Source of the DNA: Psychromonas hadalis ATCC BAA-638
GTDB lineage: Bacteria; Pseudomonadota; Gammaproteobacteria; Enterobacterales; Psychromonadaceae
Reading direction: 5' to 3'
DNA: 42,608 nucleotides
Assembly (NCBI RefSeq): GCF_000420245.1
Contig: NZ_ATUO01000009.1
Span: 1 to 42,608, forward strand
The first letter of the stretch is position 1, and each line of letters starts with the position of its first letter. Below are positions 9,252 through 42,525 of the stretch, piece after piece. The translations under genes were made by a program, and so were the position numbers. The notes below the pieces were generated by a model. That model saw nothing but the letters and a program-made list of their open reading frames with translations, did not search any database and had not been told where the DNA came from.

Positions 9252-9267
9252 GTTTTCTTAACTAGCT

Positions 9268-9443
9268 AAGGATCGGCTTCAAAAGTACTTGCGCTTTTGT
9301 TTTCAAAATAACCAGTAATTTCAGGTTTCTTGAAAATAATTAAGGATCGGCTTCAAAATTACTTGTGCTTTTGTTTTCAAAATAACCAGTAATTTCAGGT
9401 TTTTTGAAAAGAATTTAGCGCAAGTTATTGTGTAACGATTCCT
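9268..9443. repeat. Palindromic repeat array (two left units, one right unit)
   Basis: A unit starting AAGGATCGGCTTCAAAA occurs at 9268 and again at 9342 (period 74). Both copies run through TTTTCAAAATAACCAGTAA. The second copy continues into an inverted right half ending TTGTGTAACGATTCCT. Left and right halves are imperfect inverted copies of one another (AGGATCG.../...CGATTCCT, both containing the core ACTTG-GCGC or its complement), so the whole could fold into a long hairpin. Other copies are at 12195-12258 and 42295-42498. Confidence 0.85.
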
Positions 9444-11825: not shown

Positions 11826-12196
11826 TGACTTATGCAATTGCAATGACCGATAAAAAACTATCACACCACTTTTCAAAAGCGGAAATATTTAGTTTTTATG
11901 ATGAACAAAATAGAGAGGTTGCTGTTTATAAAAATCCAGTCTTGGCCGTGTCTGGGTATTCTGGAAAGAGATTGCTTATCAACTTATTAAAAGAGCGTCA
12001 ATGCCATACGGTGATTGTGCGCAAGATTGGTGAGAAAACCTTAGCTAAGTTACTTAATGCGGGTTTCAACGTGGTGCAAGGAAATACACGTAATAGCGTT
12101 GAACTGCTATTAAATAACGCTCGCTTAGATACACATCGTCTCACTGATCCATCACAAGGGGTAAAGAAAAAAACAAATTGTTGTGGCCATCATTAA
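11822..12196 (+). CDS. NifX/NifB-type dinitrogenase iron-molybdenum cofactor-binding domain protein
   Basis: A 124-residue single-domain protein of the COG1433 family: MTYAIAMTDKKLSHHFSKAEIFSFYD is the first strand and loop, and GKRLLINLLKERQCHTVIVRKIGEKTLAKLLNAGFNVVQG is the typical core. The C-terminal tail NCCGHH could bind metal. Relatives include NifX, NafY and the Mo/Cu orange protein of Desulfovibrio; all bind metal-sulfur clusters. No nitrogenase genes are in the window, so a nitrogen-fixation role is unlikely. It is the third gene of the DUF134 operon. Its stop codon is immediately followed by a repeat that runs into a truncated nqrM. Confidence 0.85.
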   Translation: MMTYAIAMTDKKLSHHFSKAEIFSFYDEQNREVAVYKNPVLAVSGYSGKRLLINLLKERQCHTVIVRKIGEKTLAKLLNAGFNVVQGNTRNSVELLLNNARLDTHRLTDPSQGVKKKTNCCGHH

Positions 12197-12258
12197 GAAT
12201 CGGCTTCAAAATTACTGCGCTTTTGTTTTCAAAATAACCAGTCATTTCAGGTTTTTTT
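12195..12258. repeat. Single left unit of the palindromic repeat
   Basis: AAGAATCGGCTTCAAAATTA followed by GCGCTTTTGTTTTCAAAATAACC is the same left unit as at 9268 and 9342, ending in CAGGTTTTTTT. It begins on the stop codon of the NifX-like gene and ends where homology to nqrM starts, so it appears to have replaced the 5' end of that gene. Confidence 0.8.
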
Positions 12259-12262
12259 ACTG

Positions 12263-12421: not shown

Positions 12422-12520
12422 TTTAGTGAGCTTTAATTAGTTAAGGGAGTTATTGAAGCTCTGTTAAACTCATTTTTTGTTTTTTCTTGGTAACCATTAT
12501 TAACTATTTTTTTATCCTGC

Positions 12521-12550
12521 TTTTACTGCCTTTTACTGCCTTTTACTGCT
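12521..12550. repeat. Three tandem copies of a 10-bp unit in the endA signal-peptide region
   Basis: TTTTACTGCC, TTTTACTGCC and TTTTACTGCT follow each other directly. Ten is not a multiple of three, so any gain or loss of a copy shifts the reading frame of the endA leader. With two copies the frame from the TTG at 12487 would run straight into endA. Confidence 0.9.
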
Positions 12551-12556
12551 TTTTCA

Positions 12557-13249
12557 ATGCAAGGGAATCAAACGAATCACTCATTTTATCAAGCTAAAAA
12601 GATGCTTGAGGGGGATGTTTATCAAAAGGATAAACAACGCACTACTCTCTATTGTGAAGCGCGTTTTAACGTAAACAAGCAGATACGTTTTCCTGAGGGT
12701 TTTACCACCAGTAAATATAAAAAACGTGCTAAAAAAGTAGAGTGGGAGCATGTTGTGCCTGCTGAAAACTTTGGTCGTCACTTTAAAGCGTGGCGAGAGG
12801 GGGATAAGCATTGTGTGACCAGTAAAGGAAAAGCTTATAAGGGACGACGCGGTGCAGAGAAAACCAATCAAAATTACCGTTTGATGCAAGCTGATATGTA
12901 CAATTTATATCCCGCCATTGGTGCTGTGAATGCAAAACGTAGCAACTATAACTTCGTGATGTTAAAGGGTGATAAAAATAGTTTTGCTCGTTGCGCCATG
13001 AAAATTTCCAATCGAAAAGCAGAACCGCCAAAAAATACACGTGGCATGATCGCCCGTAGTTACCTTTATATGCATGAGAGTTATAAAAGATACAGTATGA
13101 GCCACCAGCAACATCAACTGATGAGTGCTTGGAATAAACAGTTTTCTGTTACGCCGTGGGAATGTTTACGCGCACAGCGCATTGCTAAGTTACAAGGTAA
13201 TGAAAGTGCTATTTTAGTGAAAAACTGTACGTTAGCTGGTTTTAACTAA
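12557..13249 (+). CDS. endA: Endonuclease I (EndA/Dns), signal peptide apparently out of frame
   Basis: This is a non-specific DNA endonuclease of the Vibrio/E. coli EndA family, normally periplasmic or secreted. The catalytic block is VEWEHVVPAENFG (His65 counted from this ATG), with QADMYNLYPAIGAVNAKRSNYNF, GMIARSYLYM and MSAWNKQF...WEC also conserved. The ATG at 12557 lies after the expected cleavage site, so protein made from it would stay in the cytoplasm. The upstream frame from TTG 12487 reads (M)VTIINYFFILLLLPFTAF, a fine signal peptide, but is one base out of register. Deleting one 10-bp repeat copy joins them as ...LLLLPFTAFSMQGNQ. The protein has five cysteines, and KGRRGAEK has Gly where relatives I recall have Cys, so a disulfide may be lost. 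It is either phase variable or decaying. Confidence 0.88.
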   Translation: MQGNQTNHSFYQAKKMLEGDVYQKDKQRTTLYCEARFNVNKQIRFPEGFTTSKYKKRAKKVEWEHVVPAENFGRHFKAWREGDKHCVTSKGKAYKGRRGAEKTNQNYRLMQADMYNLYPAIGAVNAKRSNYNFVMLKGDKNSFARCAMKISNRKAEPPKNTRGMIARSYLYMHESYKRYSMSHQQHQLMSAWNKQFSVTPWECLRAQRIAKLQGNESAILVKNCTLAGFN

Positions 13250-42294: not shown

Positions 42295-42498
42295 AGGAAT
42301 CGTTACACAATAACTTGCGCTAAATTGTTTTCAAAAATCCTGAAGGAATCGTTACAAAATAACTTGCGCTAAATTGTTTCCAAAAAGCCTTAAGTGACTG
42401 GCTATTTTAAAAACAAAATCGCAAGTAATGTTGAAGCCAATCCTAAATGACGGGTTATTTTGAAAACAAAAGCGCAAGTAATTTTGAAGCCAATTCTA
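42295..42498. repeat. Palindromic repeat array, right-end copy (two right units, two left units)
   Basis: AGGAATCGTTACA begins at 42295 and again at 42344 (period 49). Two inverted left units end AAGCCAATCCTA and AAGCCAATTCTA (period 53). The middle contains GTTATTTTGAAAACAAAAGC. Read on the minus strand the order is left-left-right-right, against left-left-right at 9268-9443. The array lies upstream of gspA, whose start is about 60 bases away. Confidence 0.85.
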
Positions 42499-42525
42499 AA
42501 CAGGTAAAAACAATAATTCAACTTG

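Follow-up and report, generated by a model that had tools for sequence, protein, structure and literature searches.

How can a nuclease be secreted when its export signal is encoded in a different reading frame from the nuclease itself? This question is raised by an endonuclease I gene (endA) in the window, which is the whole stretch of 42,608 nucleotides analyzed here, from a draft Psychromonas genome of 3.98 Mb in 351 contigs. The initial annotation described a 10-bp triplication in the endA leader and offered two interpretations: that changes in unit number switch secretion of the nuclease on and off, or that this strain has simply lost secretion. We searched 23 further Psychromonas genomes and compared the locus with the 15 counterparts found there; a recent allele that is weak or has lost its function seems to us likelier than a phase switch. 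The same comparison suggests that the orthologs share an unusual start codon, AUC or AUU, which is the greater surprise of the two.

The 10-bp array and the frame break

The features of the leader that define the frame break are:

12499..12501, + strand: ATT, the near-cognate codon proposed as the ancestral start from codon counts and from the leader alignment, in which 14 orthologs have ATC and one has ATT
12499..12597, + strand: dead-end frame of 32 residues (INYFFILLLLPFTAFYCFFNARESNESLILSS) followed by TAA, from translation
12506..12508, + strand: ATT in the nuclease frame with the leader IFLSCFYCLLLPFTAFS, a possible weak fallback start, approximately 15 nt from the SD-like GG; its use is putative
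12520..12554, + strand: tandem array with a 10-bp unit, with three perfect copies at 12521-12550 and a further incomplete copy, within the sequence that encodes the signal peptide, from TRF and the leader alignment
12557..13249, + strand: endonuclease I domain (PF04231), open to the stop codon, from a profile match and alignment with PDB 1ouo

The triplication is perfect, as had been described. TRF reports the array with the consensus CTTTTACTGC, 3.5 copies, a 96% match, and a score of 63; it is the sole array in the window with at least three near-perfect copies of a unit of at least 10 bp, and chance is no serious explanation for it. A good hydrophobic leader is encoded from ATT12499 or from TTG12487, which share phase 1 (mod 3), out of register with the nuclease ATG12557 in phase 2, and a 10-bp change converts one phase to the other. 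The triplication thus breaks the continuity between signal peptide and nuclease: translation begun at ATT12499 reads across the hydrophobic core before it terminates at TAA 12595-12597. In the nuclease frame, neither ATG, GTG, nor TTG occurs downstream of the stop at 12491 until ATG12557, the in-frame ATG that had been placed after the cleavage site. ATG12557 was rejected as the true start, as it lies 3' of the region encoding the signal-peptide core and the orthologs have no equivalent codon.

An endA gene occupies the same locus in 16 Psychromonas genomes, including that of the window, with ccsA convergent to it and ffh beyond; of the orthologs in named records, those of Psychromonas sp. Urea-02u-13 and P. 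marina are the closest. When the 16 leaders are aligned, a single 10-nt insertion appears, present in the window genome only, and no 10-bp array was found in the 15 ccsA/ffh-locus orthologs, all of which join the export signal to the domain in frame, a join that is absent from the window gene. From the conserved ATC to the mature part, the leader measures 51 nt in genomes G014, G010, and G008, which is exactly the length of the window leader minus 10 nt, so that removal of one unit restores the frame, as the initial annotation had predicted. Judging from this alignment, the frame break is real and private to the window genome as assembled. A run of seven T at 12507-12513, immediately 5' of the array, is a second possible site of frame-changing slippage, and transcript slippage there is conceivable, though the run is short.

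A conserved near-cognate codon at the proposed start site

Two further elements of the leader bear on where translation begins:

12462..12470, + strand: extended -10-like box TGtTAAACT, proposed from the leader alignment
12487..12491, + strand: SD-like TTGGT, whose first three bases are TTG12487, with an anti-SD pairing of -2.9 kcal/mol

One aligned site in 16/16 orthologs reads ATC (14 genes) or ATT (the window, at ATT12499, and G002), and is followed by a Lys, Asn, or Arg residue. From the -10-like box to the hydrophobic signal-peptide core, 12/16 genes lack any in-frame ATG, GTG, or TTG; in G014 none of the three occurs in the 43 codons of the upstream frame. The exceptions are G012, whose ATG at -6 lies two codons before the ATC, plus three genes with a TTG at -12 (four codons before), those of the window, G003, and G007, in which it overlaps the SD-like GG. 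These four genes with a nearby canonical codon could start there, which is a point against a shared AUC/AUU start. Leaders L015 (G012), L014 (G003), and L018 (G007), with an in-frame ATG or TTG two to four codons 5' of the conserved ATC, are potential natural tests, and could reveal the effect of a canonical start on endA.

An SD-like element precedes the ATC/ATT at normal spacing in 16/16 orthologs, with a mean anti-SD pairing of -3.47 kcal/mol; shuffled leaders gave -0.74 ± 0.50, none of 300 being as low, and for 16 related endA genes that begin with ATG the value at the start was similar (-3.75). The -10-like box lies approximately 32–38 nt 5' of the ATC/ATT in most orthologs. A strict sigma-70 promoter scan of the leader returned zero matches, the proposed promoter being drawn from the alignment alone, and the leader has no Rfam match to an RNA element.

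Codon usage also sets the site apart. ATC is the rarest Ile codon within these genes (18/141, compared with 93 ATT and 30 ATA), and at four conserved internal Ile columns it occurs in 1–2 of the 16 sequences, versus 14/16 at the proposed start site. The excess corresponds to p ~3e-11 on the assumption of independent sequences, which they are not. Decay of the whole ortholog group was rejected as the cause of the missing starts, as the 15 orthologs have an open domain, six Cys, and a hydrophobic leader. Taken together, the alignments suggest that Psychromonas endA at the ccsA/ffh locus probably initiates at a conserved near-cognate AUC/AUU, like infC and pcnB.

The initial annotation, made without sight of the orthologs and of the lack of a canonical start in most of them, had read the window leader from TTG12487, a choice that the orthologs do not bear out. 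If TTG12487 were the real start, the aligned ATC/ATT would be an Ile codon retained for the signal peptide; TTG12487 is in frame with ATT12499, and TTG at -12 recurs in two of the 15 orthologs, but 12/16 orthologs lack such a codon, the TTG itself overlaps the SD-like TTGG and has only a T-run upstream in place of an SD of its own, and the rarest Ile codon occupies 14/16 sites. It also lies 16 nt after the -10-like box, with the codon aligned in 16/16 orthologs just 12 nt downstream. We regard this reading as very unlikely, and TTG12487 is most likely, from its position in these alignments, mainly a part of the SD-like element.

Paralogs, relatives in the wider order, and infC

At other loci in the genus, endonuclease I genes have an ATG 57–90 nt before the mature part, with the exception of a gene of G017 on a short contig, which has TTG only. 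In the wider order, 26/29 endA leaders have an upstream ATG and 3/29 only GTG or TTG (two of the 29 being re-reads), and none of the 29 is adjacent to ccsA.

The infC gene served as a positive control:

L068 (G000:C21:17820) and L112-L132: infC start position reading ATA

ATA, not ATT, follows the SD in 21/21 readable Psychromonas genomes, and the infC leaders of the genus also carry a TTG overlapping their SD. Elsewhere, infC starts with AUU in E. coli and with ATC in Streptomyces (PMC5472188), and the E. coli genes with AUU starts are infC and pcnB (PMC9410913). IF3 represses near-cognate starts, and a well-studied case besides infC is Streptomyces sigR, whose conserved GTC start is repressed by IF3 (PMC5472188). 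In E. coli reporters with one context, AUU, AUA, CUG, and AUC yielded 0.1–0.3% of AUG activity (PMC9680021).

The nuclease domain and other copies of the gene

The window nuclease matches PF04231 with 94.4 bits (curated cut-off 25) and PDB 1ouo with E=3.8e-44, and the catalytic-region motif (EWEH...) is present as EWEHVVPAENFG, aligned with PDB 1ouo. Three codons depart from residues that are invariant in the 33 other aligned sequences:

12851..12853, + strand: GGT (Gly) replacing the invariant Cys (KGRRCAEK in orthologs)
12986..12988, + strand: GCT (Ala) replacing the invariant Gly (FGSC in orthologs)
13145..13147, + strand: TCT (Ser) replacing an invariant Pro

The Gly in KGRRGAEK and the odd Cys count, both of which had been noted previously, are real: the window has five Cys, compared with six in all 33 other family members. 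There is some sign of the relaxed selection that they had been said to fit. In addition to the Cys, Gly, and Pro changes, the window branch is longer than that of its sister G014 (0.45 vs 0.16), and Tajima counts, window versus G014, were 27:9 and 23:10 with two outgroups, although weaker (21:17) with G010; ccsA showed no clear excess in the same comparison. The three changes at invariant positions are equaled or exceeded in G021 (3), G006 (3), and G024 (4). Since the domain has no stop codon, inactivation would be recent or incomplete.

The genome contains five PF04231 matches, two of which are close paralogs with normal ATG starts, and with these other endonuclease I genes present, loss of the ccsA-locus copy would be tolerable. 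Further endonuclease I gene fragments, several of them with stops, were observed at G014:C289, G014:C275, G014:C21, G019:C1:1384300-1384754, and G001:C234. Judging from the genomes compared, the family often gains and loses copies in Psychromonas.

How the window allele may have arisen

The explanation that we consider reasonably probable is that a secreted endA with a near-cognate start acquired a private 10-bp insertion, which would have produced a recent loss-of-function or strongly reduced allele. In the ancestral state, endonuclease I would have been translated from AUC/AUU, with a modest SD-like element at normal spacing in a short 5' leader. Slippage or unequal exchange may then have added one 10-bp unit to a signal-peptide stretch that was already repeat-like. 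Ribosomes starting at ATT12499 would now make a hydrophobic dead-end peptide of 32 residues, and the nuclease, separated from its export signal, would not be exported and would be made little or not at all, the sole expected sources of residual product being ATT12506, whose spacing is poor, and ATG12557, the product of which would not be exported. The allele would be tolerated through the other endonuclease I genes of the genome. We infer both low expression and a recent event.

A loss-of-function or weak allele is preferred to a phase switch because an invariant Cys has been lost, the protein has evolved moderately faster, and intact paralogs exist. Against it stand the Tajima count with outgroup G010, the three genomes in which changes at invariant positions are equally or more numerous, and the open domain, since the gene may still be used. 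Loss of secretion was the better half of the earlier interpretation, as compared with switching.

It is unlikely, to our reading, that the three-unit allele still yields a low level of secreted nuclease from ATT12506. The array is hydrophobic in this frame too, the frame joins its leader to a domain that is open to the stop, and the gene would already be tolerant of near-cognate starts; however, the distance from the SD-like GG is poor, no ortholog uses this position, and change in the domain is accelerated.

A phase-variation switch, in which slippage alters the unit number and endA alternates between an in-frame, secreting state and an out-of-frame, silent one, is an improbable explanation. 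The repeat is perfect, its unit is not a multiple of three, it lies inside the signal-peptide stretch, and one unit fewer gives the ortholog leader length. Yet the array has only three units, and domain residues that are invariant elsewhere have changed. Comparison of the repeat copy number among relatives, from which support for switching could have come, supplied none, with the array in 0/15 orthologs and a single allele visible in one assembly.

Misassembly of a true two-unit repeat, which a draft in 351 contigs might suggest, is highly improbable, as ordinary reads are longer than the 35-bp array, arrays of this size usually assemble correctly, and other changes in endA likewise indicate relaxed selection.

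Comparison with known systems

The frameshift itself is ordinary. Compared with the EndA/Vvn endonuclease I proteins (PF04231; PDB 1ouo, 1oup), the window gene encodes the same domain with the EWEHVVPA motif retained, and its orthologs have a signal-peptide leader; it differs in having lost a Cys, one of six that are otherwise invariant, and in being frameshifted from its leader, and 12/16 ccsA-locus orthologs differ in having no canonical start. The leader resembles simple-repeat contingency loci in that the unit is not a multiple of three and lies close to the 5' end of a gene whose product is exported, and the unit number in the window endA sets the reading frame, the frames differing by one. 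Unlike contingency loci, it has three copies only, the array is not conserved, and one allele is visible.

The proposed start has closer parallels. As in infC, which encodes IF3, a conserved near-cognate codon that is never AUG would follow an SD at normal spacing; endA encodes a secreted nuclease rather than a translation factor, and its SD-like element is weaker. The pcnB gene of E. coli, like endA a gene unrelated to translation, has a weak AUU start, but differs in function and in that its start was experimentally shown, that of endA being putative. Streptomyces sigR likewise has a non-canonical start conserved across its genus, but differs in its extensive SD and experimental proof. For endA, we infer initiation at AUC/AUU and discrimination by IF3. 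A further step, which we put forward tentatively and at slightly less than even confidence, is that the AUC/AUU start has been selected across the genus so that weak, IF3-discriminated initiation would make nuclease synthesis depend on the condition of the translation machinery, as in infC and sigR, and that the window strain has lost this control through repeat expansion.

Our literature searches, the coverage of which was incomplete, found no earlier report of an endA with a near-cognate start. If true, a secreted nuclease with a conserved AUC/AUU start would be an addition to a small known group, and its occurrence in 16 Psychromonas genomes would be unexpected. It would also suggest that gene callers, by disallowing starts other than ATG/GTG/TTG, cause such starts to be overlooked. 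A gene with no start codon can pass for a pseudogene; here, comparison alone separates a conserved odd start from a private frameshift. To our knowledge, few bacterial genes retain a near-cognate start across species.

A dispersed repeat in the window

A dispersed intergenic repeat with the core CTTGCGCTTTTGTTTTCAAAATAACC was observed at positions 9267-9415, 12190-12260, and 42295-42500 of the window. The core has 122 matches in the genome at up to three mismatches, often at contig ends, compared with 0 for the reversed control. The repeat resembles REP-type elements, and its presence may be a cause of the fragmented assembly.
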